A stretch of DNA of 32,384 nucleotides, taken from contig PBJZ01000010.1 of NCBI GenBank assembly GCA_002721275.1, positions 48,708 through 81,091 of the forward strand, written 5' to 3'. The stretch comes from Flavobacteriaceae bacterium. GTDB lineage: Bacteria; Bacteroidota; Bacteroidia; Flavobacteriales; Flavobacteriaceae. The position numbers and the translations under genes were made by a program. Numbering within the stretch: the first letter of the stretch is position 1; every line of letters starts with the position of its first letter. The notes beneath the pieces are model-generated. The model was given only the letters and a program-made list of their open reading frames with translations, was not told the DNA's origin and made no database searches. Shown piece after piece: positions 27,609-32,384 of the stretch.

Positions 27609-27682
27609 GGGGATGTAGCTCAGTTGGTTAGAGCGCTTGACTGGCAGTCAAGAGGTCGTGAGTTCGAATCTCATCTTCTCCA
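27609..27682 (+). tRNA. tRNA-Ala (anticodon GGC)
   Basis: GGGGATG TA GCTC..GAGC G CTTGA CTGGCAG TCAAG AGGTC GTGAG TTCGAAT CTCAT CTTCTCC A. Anticodon GGC; G3:U70 Ala identity pair; CCA not encoded. Confidence 0.95.
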
Positions 27683-27958
27683 CAAGTGTTTATACGGTTT
27701 AACAAAGGTTAGCCCTTTTTTCTTAAATCAAAACTACATAGAAAACTACATAATTTTAAAAACTAGCATCAATTTTGCTGATTTTGTGGGTCGTGAATTT
27801 TTCTTTTTTCACTTGTCCAATTTCCCTCATTATCTCTCTTAATTATATTGGCTTCAAGTTCTGTAACAAATAATATAATACTATTTGTTTTATCTATTAT
27901 TAAAATTAAAAACCTAGGTAGTAATGTTTTATATTCACAAAAATTATAAAAATATATT

Positions 27959-28474
27959 ATGAAAAAATTAGTACTTATTTATTCAATTATTTTATCAATA
28001 GCATTTTCAAAAAATACAAATGCCCAAGGTACGATAGTTGATGTTGCTGTTGGTAACAAGAATTTTTCAACTTTAGTTACGGCTTTAAAAGCTGCTGACT
28101 TAGTTAGTGCTTTACAAGGCGATGGTCCTTTTACTGTTTTTGCTCCAACAAATGATGCTTTTGCTAAAATTGATTCAGAAACACTAAATTCTTTATTAGA
28201 AGAAAAAAATCAAAAAGTTTTAGCAAATATTTTAACTTATCATGTTATCTCTGGAAAATTAGCTGCTACTGATGTAGTTGCTGCTTTAGATAAAGGGAAT
28301 GGTTCCGTTGAGTTAAAAGCACTAAATGGTGAATTAATTTCTGTTATGCAAAAAGATGGAAAAATTTGGTTGAAAGACTCGAATGAGAATTACAGCGAAA
28401 TTACTGCAACAGATGTTATGGGAAGTAATGGTGTTATTCACGTAATAAACACTGTTGTGATGCCTAAAAAATGA
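27959..28474 (+). CDS. Secreted fasciclin-domain protein
   Basis: Signal peptide, then FSTLVTALKAADLVSALQGDGPFTVFAPTNDAFAKI, ILTYHVISGKL, DVMGSNGVIHVINTVVMPK. Confidence 0.95.
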   Translation: MKKLVLIYSIILSIAFSKNTNAQGTIVDVAVGNKNFSTLVTALKAADLVSALQGDGPFTVFAPTNDAFAKIDSETLNSLLEEKNQKVLANILTYHVISGKLAATDVVAALDKGNGSVELKALNGELISVMQKDGKIWLKDSNENYSEITATDVMGSNGVIHVINTVVMPKK

Positions 28475-28519
28475 TTATAAATTGTTTATATTTTTAGTCG
28501 AAAAATAATTCTTTACAAC

Positions 28520-28555
28520 AAAACCCCTCTAATGATTTATTGGGGTTTTATTTTT
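28520..28555 (+). terminator. Rho-independent terminator after the fasciclin gene
   Basis: AAAACCCC-(14 nt)-GGGGTTTT followed by ATTTTT. Confidence 0.75.
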
Positions 28556-28606
28556 AAACTTAAACAACACTTATTATTTACCGTTTTGCTATAGACCAAA
28601 TGTCTG

Positions 28607-28771
28607 GGTTAATTTTTTATTTAACCACTTCTTTGCTACTGTGCTTCTATCTTTCATAATTATATTTTTTAACTGGTATCTCTTGGTAACCAGTTGCAAC
28701 CAAAAAAACTGGGTACTTCCTTATGACCGAGCTTAAGATAGGTAAGGGAGTCATGTTTCACATGAACTCCC
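28607..28771. other. Cluster of three inverted repeats in non-coding DNA (possible structured RNA or DNA element)
   Basis: GGTTAA-N8-TTAACC (28607-28626); AACTGGT-N11-ACCAGTT (28671-28695); GGGAGTCATG-TTTCA-CATGAACTCCC (28746-28771, one-nt bulge) with outer AGGTA (28740-28744)/TACCT (28779-28783). Confidence 0.5.
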
Positions 28772-28830
28772 AACATACTACCTACCAGAAGAACCAAAGA
28801 AATGCAAGTTCCAGTTAGCCCAATTAATAA

Positions 28831-29388
28831 TTAATTAAGCACTTCAGGGTTCACTCTAAATCCATTTTTGTACATATCAAAATTGACATATCCATTGGTC
28901 AGACGATTTGTGAACATCTTGGCAATGGGATGCACTTTGTCCATTTCATCTAAAGCACTAATGAATTTATTTCCAACTAATAATAATTTATTTTGTTTCT
29001 CACTGGTTGTCCAAGTTTCAAATTCTTTCCTATCTACTTTTATGAATGCTTCATTGTTCTTAAAATCCACTTTCATTTTAATATCCTGATAAGCCGATTG
29101 AATATCCACCAAAGAAAAATAATTAATCTCCTTTGCACGAATTAACTCATTAGCACTTAATCCAAGAGTATTTTGCTTGAAAAATGTTTCCAGAACTAAA
29201 TCCTTAAAATATGAAACCATATTATTATGGAGTTTTTTCATATCGACTTTTTTAGGGTCAATAGCATTATGAATCCAGACAGATGCTTCGTCTAATAATT
29301 CTAATTTCTGTGTCGCTTTCTCTTGTTCTTCTTCATACTCCTTTTTAGCAAAAGAAATCATTAAGGGTTTAAATTTAGATTGCTTCAT
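28831..29388 (-). CDS. Hypothetical protein, 185 aa
   Basis: Intact ORF with balanced composition; overlaps the upstream 69-aa ORF by 14 nt. No family recognised. Confidence 0.6.
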   Translation of the reverse strand: MKQSKFKPLMISFAKKEYEEEQEKATQKLELLDEASVWIHNAIDPKKVDMKKLHNNMVSYFKDLVLETFFKQNTLGLSANELIRAKEINYFSLVDIQSAYQDIKMKVDFKNNEAFIKVDRKEFETWTTSEKQNKLLLVGNKFISALDEMDKVHPIAKMFTNRLTNGYVNFDMYKNGFRVNPEVLN

Positions 29389-29584
29389 TGTGATATGCTT
29401 GGGTTAATATTTCAGCGACATATTTATTAGCATCTTTCTTTTTCGCTTTTGCTTTTCTTCGATAATAAGATGATGCATCATTATCTAATTGAATTAAAAA
29501 ATTCTCTTTAAGTTTTTTTCTATTTGTTGTCCTGGTAAATGCCTTAAATAAGCCATCCTTAACCATTGTTAGTTTATATCTCAT
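29375..29584 (-). CDS. Hypothetical small basic protein, 69 aa
   Basis: MRYKLTMVKDGLFKAFTRTTNRKKLKENFLIQLDNDASSYYRRKAKAKKKDANKYVAEILTQAYHNEAI; basic, helical. Confidence 0.55.
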   Translation of the reverse strand: MRYKLTMVKDGLFKAFTRTTNRKKLKENFLIQLDNDASSYYRRKAKAKKKDANKYVAEILTQAYHNEAI

Positions 29585-29654
29585 TTATAAATATCTATAT
29601 AATTATATATATTTGTTTAAATAATATAGATTCATAGTTTGTCTATTAAATTAT

Positions 29655-29789
29655 TTATTTGATGTCAGAGGTTAATTTAGTTCTGCAATAAGTCGAAACA
29701 GGAACTCTGTCCTTCTTTGCCTTATCTCTTAAAATCTCCATATCTACTTCATTCATTCGAATGTTTACACTTGATGTTAAAATATCCAT
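29655..29789 (-). CDS. 44-aa ribbon-helix-helix-like (CopG/MobC-type) microprotein (not in supplied ORF track)
   Basis: Read by hand: MDILTSSVNIRMNEVDMEILRDKAKKDRVPVSTYCRTKLTSDIK*. SVNIRMNEVDMEILRDKAKKDRVPVSTYCR fits an RHH strand-helix-helix pattern. Confidence 0.55.
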   Translation of the reverse strand: MDILTSSVNIRMNEVDMEILRDKAKKDRVPVSTYCRTKLTSDIK

Positions 29790-29810
29790 ATTATTGTGTT
29801 GTTTTTATTC

Positions 29811-29834
29811 GTCATGGCACAAAGTGCCAATGAC
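29811..29834. promoter_or_regulatory. Inverted repeat GTCATGGCAC-AAA-GTGCC(A)ATGAC upstream of the RHH-like gene
   Basis: 10-bp arms with a one-nt bulge, 22 nt upstream of the ATG at 29789 (minus strand). Confidence 0.5.
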
Positions 29835-29987
29835 TTTGATTAATAATTGTAACTAATAAACAACAATAACCATACTACAAGCAAGGGTTTTTTTAATATT
29901 GAAAATTATTCTGTAAATCAGTGTGAATCATTATATATCACTTGTGAAGAATTAATGATATTTCTATGTTTCTTTAATATAAAAAGC

Positions 29988-30046
29988 TTGAAAAAACTTG
30001 ATGAATCAAATAATATTATCTTTAAGTTAAATACATACACTATGAA
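29988..30046 (+). repeat. 59-bp exact direct repeat, copy 1 (promoter/leader/ATG module)
   Basis: TTGAAAAAACTTGATGAATCAAATAATATTATCTTTAAGTTAAATACATACACTATGAA, identical to 31758-31816. Contains a -7-like TATCTTTA and the palindrome TTGATGAATCAA. Confidence 0.95.
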
Positions 30047-30101
30047 GAAGCTACTACTTGTTTTACTGTTTGTTCCACTTGTTTCTAATAACTTCTGTTA
30101 A
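30042..30101 (+). CDS. 19-aa leader or truncated signal-peptide ORF
   Basis: MKKLLLVLLFVPLVSNNFC*; start codon lies inside the 59-bp repeat; stop abuts a terminator. Confidence 0.35.
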   Translation: MKKLLLVLLFVPLVSNNFC

Positions 30102-30128
30102 ATCTAACATAAGTTAGATTAGTTTTTT
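30101..30128 (+). terminator. Rho-independent terminator
   Basis: AATCTAAC-ATAA-GTTAGATT perfect 8-bp stem followed by AGTTTTTT. Confidence 0.7.
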
Positions 30129-30191
30129 ACTTGTGTTTTACAATTATATTTTTATTTAGGTATATTTGAAATCAAATTAAAAACAATTAAA

Positions 30192-30941
30192 ATGAAAAAA
30201 TTAATATACATATTATCAATAATCGTATCTACAATATCATATGCTCAGCAACAAGATGCTGAAATATGGCAAACATATAGAATAAAATCATTAAAGGGAA
30301 AAACGCAAGAGTTTGAAAAAGCTGTTTCAAAGAAAACCAGAATGTTTAATAAAACTCCAGAAGATGCTATTTTTACCTTTAAAGTGGTTGATGGTCAGGA
30401 TCAAGGAATGTACGAAAGAGTTGTTGGTTTTAAAAATTGGAGTTGGTTCAATAGATCAAACCAAAAAGAAATGGACTACTGGATGAAAAATGTTGATCCA
30501 TTAATAGAATCTCAAACTGGATGGATTGTTTGGGAGAGGATAAAGGAATATTCTCACAATTGGAACCCAGGAAATGCTCCAAGCAAACACCAGCTTAGAA
30601 GATCAAGAATGGTTAAACCTAGCGGATATAGTGACTTTCTAATTGTTCATGAAAAAATGAAAAAAGTCTATGATAAATATGGTTATAAAGGGATAAAAGG
30701 ACTTTTTAGATGTGTTTCTGGAGGAAGCGAACAAATGTTTCTAATAGTTAGCCCTTTTGATGAGTATGGGGAAAATACAGGATTTGATAAATCTGACAAA
30801 AATACAGCTGAATTGTACAATGAAATGTTTGGAGATGATGCATGGCAGAAAGATATATTAAAATATAATTCCTCATTGGTTGACTGGGGAAGATCTGCAG
30901 AAAGATTAACTATTGTTAAATCAATGTCTTCCCAAAATTAA
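30192..30941 (+). CDS. Hypothetical secreted protein, possible dimeric alpha/beta-barrel
   Basis: Signal peptide MKKLIYILSIIVSTISYAQQ; W/Y-rich soluble body (EIWQTYRIKSLKGKTQEFEKAVSKKTRMFNK). No firm family. Confidence 0.65.
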   Translation: MKKLIYILSIIVSTISYAQQQDAEIWQTYRIKSLKGKTQEFEKAVSKKTRMFNKTPEDAIFTFKVVDGQDQGMYERVVGFKNWSWFNRSNQKEMDYWMKNVDPLIESQTGWIVWERIKEYSHNWNPGNAPSKHQLRRSRMVKPSGYSDFLIVHEKMKKVYDKYGYKGIKGLFRCVSGGSEQMFLIVSPFDEYGENTGFDKSDKNTAELYNEMFGDDAWQKDILKYNSSLVDWGRSAERLTIVKSMSSQN

Positions 30942-30960
30942 TTTACAAAACCTACTAAAT

Positions 30961-30988
30961 AAAAAAACCTCCATTTGGAGGTTTTTTT
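30961..30988. terminator. Bidirectional rho-independent terminator between convergent genes
   Basis: AAAAAAACCTCC-ATTT-GGAGGTTTTTTT: perfect 12-bp stem with A-tract/T-tract symmetry, between 30192(+) and 31147(-). Confidence 0.85.
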
Positions 30989-31146
30989 ATACCCTTTAAA
31001 TATGGAATAATAAACAAAGAAAGTAATTTAACAGTAAGCTAAAATTATCATTATTTGATAGTTACAACATAGTAAAACTTTCTGTATCGGGAAATAAATT
31101 ACCGTTTATTTCACTTTCATTTACCTTCAAAATAGTATGATAATAA

Positions 31147-31590
31147 TTAATTTGATAAAACCTTCACCCCGTTTGCAATTAAAGAATATACTATTTCAGG
31201 TTTATTAATAGAGGCAATTTTTTCGTCTGAATCCCCCCTGTCAGAAGCATAATGTTTTAATTCATCAATGGGTATGATTTTCTTAAAAGCTACACCGCTC
31301 ACGACAACATTTTTTCCAGATATATCCTTTGGGACAAAGAAACCGTAATCTTTAAAATTTACCAATACTTTTTTGTTATCACCCAAATCTAATCTCATCC
31401 AACATCCCTTCATTTGACAAACATCAAAAACAGTTGCTTCAAATTTAGTATTGAATTTTGAATCCTCATCATAAAGTAATATTAACTGCTTATTGGACAT
31501 GATTTTATCATTTTCAATGTTTTCACCAAAAACATTTTTTTGTCCGTTTAATCCAATTGTAAATAATAAAAGTAAAAGTATCTTTTTCAT
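31147..31590 (-). CDS. DUF4920 family protein
   Basis: Signal peptide; GEATVFDVCQMKGCWMRL-like motif (FEATVFDVCQMKGCWMRLDLGDNKKVLVNFKDYGFFVPKDISGKNVVVSGVAF). Confidence 0.85.
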   Translation of the reverse strand: MKKILLLLLFTIGLNGQKNVFGENIENDKIMSNKQLILLYDEDSKFNTKFEATVFDVCQMKGCWMRLDLGDNKKVLVNFKDYGFFVPKDISGKNVVVSGVAFKKIIPIDELKHYASDRGDSDEKIASINKPEIVYSLIANGVKVLSN

Positions 31591-31757
31591 AGAAGATTTT
31601 TTAAAAGTATAAAATTAAAAATACCTGATATATAATCCTAATTTATAAAATATAATTACAGAAAATTAAAATAAATAACCCTTCATCCAGTCTATTATTC
31701 TATTCTTGTTTTATTGAATTTTCTTGATTCCATTCACTACATTTCTTTTATGGTAAA

Positions 31758-31816
31758 TTGAAAAAACTTGATGAATCAAATAATATTATCTTTAAGTTAA
31801 ATACATACACTATGAA
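31758..31816 (+). repeat. 59-bp exact direct repeat, copy 2
   Basis: Identical to 29988-30046. Confidence 0.95.
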
Positions 31817-31886
31817 AAAACTTATTACACTATTATTATTCATTGTAGCAGTTATAATGACTTATTTAGCATATACCAAGGCTTGA
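31812..31886 (+). CDS. 24-aa hydrophobic microprotein ORF
   Basis: MKKLITLLLFIVAVIMTYLAYTKA*; start inside repeat copy 2. Confidence 0.35.
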   Translation: MKKLITLLLFIVAVIMTYLAYTKA

Positions 31887-31919
31887 AGAGTTCAAACCCT
31901 AGTAGGAATCTAACCCCAA

Positions 31920-32313
31920 TTAATTGAAAAAATTAATTATTCTATACAAAGGATGAAGAAATACAAAGAAAATATTAAATCCGTAATAAATCATAATGTT
32001 TCTTTTTTTTAAAACAAGTGAAGGTATTATGTATATCAATACATAGAATACAGCAATAAAAATCAATAAATCCCCCACATCATTAGAATTAATAACATTA
32101 TCAACCACAAACTGAACTAACATAGAATCCAAATGAAAAAATTGGGTGAAAAATAAAAACCCCCAAATCCACATCATTAGAAGAACCCAAAAATCATATC
32201 TTTCTCCTAGGTCTACCCCCTTAACAGAACAAGAGTTACAAAGCCCCTTCCAATCTAAGGGAACATCTCTTCTGTAGCAATTAAGACAAAATTTAATGCT
32301 TATTTCTTTTTTG
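31920..32313 (-). CDS. Zinc-ribbon plus transmembrane ORF lacking a canonical upstream start; possible -1 frameshift continuation of an upstream membrane ORF
   Basis: Frame reads EISIKFCLNCYRRDVPLDWKGLCNSCSVKGVDLGERYDFWVLLMMWIWGFLFF..., extending N-terminally past the listed start at 32177. It contains CxxC...CxxC and no ATG/GTG/TTG upstream of MMW. Confidence 0.5.
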
Positions 32314-32384
32314 ATTTAAGGTACATAAGATAAAAAGAGAAAAGCATTATTAGAAGTCCTGTAATATGAAATACTATTTCATAA
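32264..32384 (-). CDS. N-terminal membrane ORF running off the window edge, ending at AAATAA just after A AAA AAG
   Basis: Minus frame ...YEIVFHITGLLIMLFSFYLMYLKSKKK*, open to the window end. The stop immediately follows the A6G run; true 5' end unseen. Listed span is approximate at the 3' side and includes the downstream stem region. Confidence 0.4.

Follow-up and report, generated by a model that had tools for sequence, protein, structure and literature searches.

A 59-bp direct repeat near tRNA-Ala as the probable core of a dispersed, mosaic 5'-end module in an uncultured marine Flavobacteriaceae genus

The window, by which we mean the whole stretch of 32,384 nucleotides analysed (G000:C10:48708-81091, where G000 is the host genome), reaches the end of contig C10. 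Towards that end an intact tRNA-Ala gene is followed by two copies, A and B, of a 59-bp sequence, each running into a tiny open reading frame, with a gene for a 249-aa protein and a DUF4920 gene between them (Table 1). A search of the window for RNA families with Rfam returned tRNA alone. The other genomes of the genus used for comparison are, like the host genome, draft assemblies (MAGs where named), and chimeric contig ends are therefore possible.

Table 1. Features of the repeat locus, in window positions
Feature	Position	Strand	Basis or remark
tRNA-Ala (ggc), intact; conserved island side, likely integration site	27609..27683	+	ARAGORN, Rfam
Variable region 3' of tRNA-Ala to contig end, both copies inside	27684..32384	.	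synteny with G006 and G002 stops at the tRNA
Copy A, 59-bp module (promoter P1 + leader L + start codon)	29988..30046	+	exact repeat
Palindrome TTGATGAATCAA, copy A	29998..30009	+	overlaps expected -33 element; fixed 7-nt gap to TATCTTTA kept in other P1 copies
-7 box TATCTTTA, copy A	30017..30024	+	17 nt before ATG; near Bacteroidetes consensus TAnnTTTG (PMC9723704)
19-aa ORF MKKLLLVLLFVPLVSNNFC, signal-peptide block cut off after ~15 codons	30042..30101	+	block common to many longer proteins in relatives
Terminator-like hairpin AATCTAAC-ATAA-GTTAGATT + T run, fused to truncated ORF	30101..30128	+	~42-bp element, two G002 loci near tRNA-Phe
896-bp block with 249-aa gene	30123..31018	+	95% identical in G006:C35, other neighbourhood, without copy A
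249-aa protein, signal-peptide-like start, no Pfam family	30192..30941	+	Pfam
DUF4920 protein (PF16267)	31147..31590	-	paralogue, 64% aa, on G000:C8, 3.2 kb from third P1 copy
Full P1+L unit of copy B	31724..31811	+	homologous to G001 copies over ~90 nt
Copy B, 59-bp module	31758..31816	+	exact repeat
Palindrome, copy B	31768..31779	+	sequence
-7 box TATCTTTA, copy B	31787..31794	+	17 nt before ATG
24-aa hydrophobic ORF MKKLITLLLFIVAVIMTYLAYTKA after copy B	31812..31886	+	ORF translation

The two copies are identical over 59 bp, stand in the same orientation and lie 1.77 kb apart, as an earlier note on this sequence had described. No exact repeat of this length arose in 100 shuffles of the window, and the repeat lengthens to 65 bp when 97% identity is allowed. 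A search of the host genome with a 36-nt core of the repeat, at up to three mismatches, matched copies A and B only. The palindrome and the TATCTTTA box were present in both copies, and the ORFs that follow have the claimed lengths of 19 and 24 aa. The claim of shared first codons was accurate only in part: the identical stretch terminates in ATGAA and hence leaves barely two codons common to both copies, beyond which copy A runs into a conserved signal-peptide block but copy B does not. Upstream of the 59 bp, the suspected weaker similarity over ~30 bp between A and B is present, weak and gapped. The DNA upstream of copy B matches that of a relative, G001, at ~88% over 91 nt, yet different ORFs follow; the DNA upstream of copy A is poorly conserved with G001. 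Identity over 59 bp with only weak similarity further upstream suggests a recent local duplication or gene conversion between A and B. The 1.77-kb interval is a possible recombination unit; its deletion was seen in none of the genomes compared.

Both copies look like orphan modules driving truncated ORFs. We read them in this way because the signal-peptide block of copy A stops after ~15 codons and joins a terminator-like element, while the 249-aa gene occurs in G006 without copy A and has its own TATATTTG box in the DNA before it. Copy A is probably a module that a rearrangement left behind; that it should drive the 249-aa gene is made unlikely by the hairpin that intervenes and by the presence of the gene in G006 without this copy. 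Of the two, copy B looks like the older, full module. The RNA comprising the leader, ORF and terminator of copy A has a fold that is not unusual as a whole (z -1.33).

Rather than an isolated duplication, the 59-bp repeat represents one version, P1, of a 5'-end module built as a mosaic. P1 consists of the palindrome TTGATNAATCAA, a fixed gap of 7 nt and the box TATCTTTA, and is followed by a short leader, L (..AATACATACACT), and the start codon. The same leader or signal-peptide block (S) is also found attached to another kind of upstream sequence, P2 (GGCATATCTTCTTCAGTAAGTTCAGGTATTTTTAATTTTCTTACATTTAAG), and the box reads TATCTTTA or TACATTTA across modules. Among the aligned copies, copy A combines P1, L and S; copy B, G001:C7:245943 and C25 combine P1 and L with another ORF; C8 and G001:C7:244878 have P1 and S without the leader; and P2+S and P2+L combinations also occur. 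In most copies the distance from the -7 box to the start is 4-6 nt or 14-18 nt, a clustering such as promoters would show. The TAnnTTTG box of F. psychrophilum occupies positions -12 to -5 (PMC9723704), so that near-leaderless mRNAs or leaders of ~12 nt would be expected from these distances. In F. johnsoniae, an A at -3 and at -11 to -13 favours initiation (PMC6847099), and leader L has an A at -3 and at -11 to -13. From motif and spacing, we infer that the P1 and P2 boxes are real promoters; the palindrome over the expected -33 element could be an operator. On the reverse strand, many P2 copies, among them those on G001:C7 and G004:C11, keep a frame open up to a terminal PELTEEDMPVV*. This frame could be read as a protein C-terminus, as if P2 came from the end of an opposed gene, but no full-length gene was found.

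With up to one mismatch, the pattern TTGATNAATCAA-N7-TATCTTTA has four sites in the host genome (two on C10, C8:633 and C25:11755), and a reversed control pattern has none at the same tolerance. Three P1 copies were found in G001, which belongs to the same genus. P1 copies occur in some lineages only among the genus genomes compared, all of them incomplete assemblies: the pattern is present in G000 and G001, degraded in G006 and absent from G003-G005, with one candidate 1-mismatch match in G002. A sequence model built from eight P1 copies (R1) gave four host matches at E<1e-10 and three in G001 at E<1e-12. In 149 other genomes drawn from the family, the best R1 match reached only E=1.1e-4, and P1 therefore looks restricted to the genus; weak family-wide matches (E about 1e-3, one per genome) were treated as background. 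A model built from nine P2-type sequences (R2; P2 plus signal peptide) gave 64 matches in seven genus genomes (25 in G001, 21 in G004 and 6 in the host), nine of the matched sequences being those on which it was trained. The weaker of these matches may be generic lipoprotein or signal-peptide starts, and three adjoin tRNA-His without a proper ORF. Among 84,980 genomes, the signal-peptide DNA pattern was found in four MAGs, all from uncultured Flavobacteriaceae. A phage origin was considered and rejected, as a phage collection held no similar DNA and viral contigs lacked both the leader pattern and the signal-peptide pattern; nine matches of a short degenerate promoter pattern in viral contigs may be due to chance.

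The four P1 copies in the host, the three in G001 and the 64 R2 matches before unrelated genes point to a dispersed promoter plus signal-start cassette, as the earlier note had proposed. That note had also named the contrary outcome, only two copies and a simple local tandem duplication, and the further copies in the host, in G001 and across the genus are at odds with it. Plain local duplication, in which 59-65 bp were copied within the locus and all other matches are ordinary promoter or signal-peptide similarity, would account for A and B alone being identical at this length, 1.77 kb apart and in one orientation. We regard it as unlikely: copies on C8 and C25 and three copies in G001 have the same palindrome, 7-nt spacing and box, the unit that copy B shares with G001 spans ~90 nt, and blocks from the upstream DNA reappear in front of unrelated genes. 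That another species has copies already weakens this explanation.

Downstream of the modules we found 42 proteins of at least 45 aa, which can be sorted into 31 clusters; after residue 22, homology between clusters could not be detected. The protein types look unrelated and include beta-lactamase-like, InlB-repeat and small membrane proteins and one that we take to be MBL-like, a label read from a sequence motif and not from a database result. The MBL-like gene is 90.6% identical between G001 and G004 over 617 nt from the ATG on, a small membrane protein gene is 86.9% identical between G001:C10 and G006:C17 and a 127-aa gene is 79.9% identical between G001 and G006, again from the ATG on; in each case, the upstream DNA differs. 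In a further MAG, NP22, the MBL-like gene (94%) stands behind yet another upstream sequence, the third for this gene. The C8 gene that stands behind P1 in the host has a P2-type upstream sequence in G002, with similarity starting 8 nt before the ATG. Orthologues with different upstream modules and a break at the start codon indicate promoter switching, as judged from these alignments. Module junctions vary and may fall at the end of the box, at the ATG or inside the signal peptide. It could be argued that we are looking at a paralogous gene family in which the 5' ends evolved slowly and survive as the modules, whereas the mature parts have diverged beyond recognition, since promoter and signal-peptide block are conserved together in many copies and some of the clusters are true homologues. 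We find this quite improbable, as the downstream proteins look unrelated, orthologues change their upstream sequence at the ATG, and noncoding upstream DNA is unlikely to remain at 88-95% while coding DNA diverges wholly.

The stretch G006:C17:1-4500 is a run of very small hydrophobic genes (~55-66 aa), each with its own leader and with almost no spacing. At G000:C8:780-8355, small lipoproteins bearing InlB-type repeats are encoded several times over (the one tested has PF18998), together with a 155-aa gene; in G002, the homologue of this gene stands near tRNA-Ala.

Copies A and B lie 2.3 and 4.1 kb 3' of tRNA-Ala. To the left of this gene, synteny between the window and its relatives holds (78-83% in G006); to the right, each of the six relatives (G001-G006) has a contig that runs out 0-1.6 kb past the 3' end of the tRNA. 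This side carries a leader plus signal-peptide module in G003 and a P2-like stretch on the other strand in G004. In G005 it carries a gene weakly similar to integrases (PHROG E=0.0022, measured on a related G004 fragment, with no Pfam integrase match); this gene is the sole integrase candidate close to tRNA-Ala and had no match in the host genome. Window positions 27627-27694 align at 91% with G000:C8:435-502, and over the final 43 nt of the tRNA the two do not differ; this 3' fragment lies 0.1 kb from the third P1 copy, on the same strand of the contigs as given. No other tRNA-Ala 3' fragment was found in the host genome. The intact gene on C10, which ends at window position 32384, and the fragment at C8:435 are on separate contigs whose linkage is putative; the duplicated 3' part resembles the trace that tRNA-targeted islands leave. 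In G004, modules lie on the 3' side of tRNA-Ser, and a 36-bp repeat 12.5 kb away on the same contig bounds the island.

Contig ends are enriched for these modules: 25 of the 64 R2 matches lie within 2 kb of one, compared with 4.7 expected. With neighbours collapsed, 19 of 39 loci are near contig ends against an expected 2.8, an expectation somewhat generous to the enrichment because each locus was treated as one position. Fifteen loci have a tRNA or tmRNA gene no more than 6 kb away, 12 on its 3' side, 2 on its 5' side and 1 mixed (p=0.006), a result that bears on side and not on closeness; 42 of the 64 matches are more than 6 kb from a detected tRNA or on stretches with none. Blocks common to G000 and G006 (30123-31018 and 32286-32384) are 95% identical, above the 78-83% of core DNA, and stand in different neighbourhoods, which points to recent exchange. 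The copies thus appear to sit in hypervariable DNA, mostly islands and often by tRNA genes. At G005:C16:692-746 and G001:C15:77584-77623, the tRNA-Ala sequence stops once past the anticodon region and gives way to other DNA, which in G005 is that of the weakly integrase-like gene; each is either a split tRNA or an assembly chimera. In a long-contig MAG, a partial tRNA-Val with downstream DNA (L234 2587-2692), not called by ARAGORN, lies ~0.9 kb from a signal-peptide module and is a possible further att remnant.

Our results suggest that a dispersed module of P1, L and start codon (in copy A also S), with the 59-mer as its core, serves island genes of one uncultured marine Flavobacteriaceae genus and is exchanged by recombination, an explanation that we consider probable. 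As many module versions stand before unrelated genes in hypervariable islands, island genes appear to gain new switches by recombination. P1 and P2 would act as sigma-A promoters, and tRNA-Ala islands would arrive via site-specific integration. Within islands, recombination through short shared blocks (P, L, S) would swap promoters between genes; alternatively, an incoming gene may gain an existing promoter and signal peptide by recombination through the same blocks. Homologous recombination through such blocks, in DNA delivered by tRNA integration, seems to us the likeliest mechanism. A more speculative proposal, which we advance tentatively, is that promoter, leader and signal peptide form a standard interface: incoming genes would recombine via blocks of 15-50 nt and acquire a promoter, a translation start and a secretion signal, a capture of expression without a dedicated recombinase. 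The cassette idea of the first reading was right in kind; it lacked the island setting, with tRNA-Ala and the duplicated tRNA fragment, and the truncated-remnant look of the tiny ORFs.

It is also conceivable that the palindrome, conserved at a fixed spacing and overlapping the -33 position, is the operator of a regulon under one transcription factor, with selection keeping the modules alike without mobility. We give this little credence, as the identity covers spacer, leader and upstream DNA where operator selection is not expected, the genes are island genes and no regulator was identified; a regulon is compatible with the recombining module as an added layer. An integron-like or other site-specific cassette system, with the module itself as recombination site, is suggested by the short genes in succession on G006:C17, one leader each, and by small membrane proteins as cargo, but is very improbable given that no attC-like structure was noticed by eye, no dedicated recombinase was found beside the modules and the junctions have no one fixed point.

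These observations bear on how newly acquired genes come to be expressed. Within one small genus, promoters are swapped repeatedly at the start codon and a signal peptide is common to unrelated secreted proteins, and hence this question can be tested by strain comparison. A warning also follows, as similarity in signal peptides or 5' regions in these genomes does not equal protein homology.

Several known systems resemble parts of this picture. As in the tRNA/tmRNA genomic islands of Islander (PMC4383910), we observe an intact tRNA, a displaced 3' fragment in direct orientation (tRNA-Ala and C8; in G004 tRNA-Ser, on one contig) and variable DNA on the 3' side, although the window island differs in that its own integrase was not found and its fragment is on another contig. 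Tycheposons of Prochlorococcus and Methylophilaceae, in the part of PMC10872708 drawn on here, are likewise tRNA-bordered cargo regions of streamlined aquatic bacteria; the genus islands differ in having no demonstrated tyrosine recombinase in the island itself and in their promoter modules, which that part of the source does not mention for tycheposons. Horizontal regulatory transfer, or intergenic switching, in E. coli and S. aureus (PMC5890482) similarly yields orthologues with unrelated upstream regions, as found here between related genomes; in this genus, however, the start codon marks the break, and a small set of alternative promoters recurs in front of many island genes, across species. 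There is also a likeness to mobile promoters and promoter propagation (Matus-Garcia et al. 2012 and van Passel et al. 2014, as cited in PMC8049555), in which short promoter-bearing repeats lie upstream of unrelated genes in related genomes; here, near-identical upstream sequences precede non-homologous genes (31 clusters among 42 proteins). To this the genus module adds a leader and signal-peptide codons, mosaic combinations and a concentration in hypervariable, partly tRNA-flanked DNA. The description that suits it best is that of a mosaic 5'-end module, akin to a mobile promoter, that belongs to island genes.
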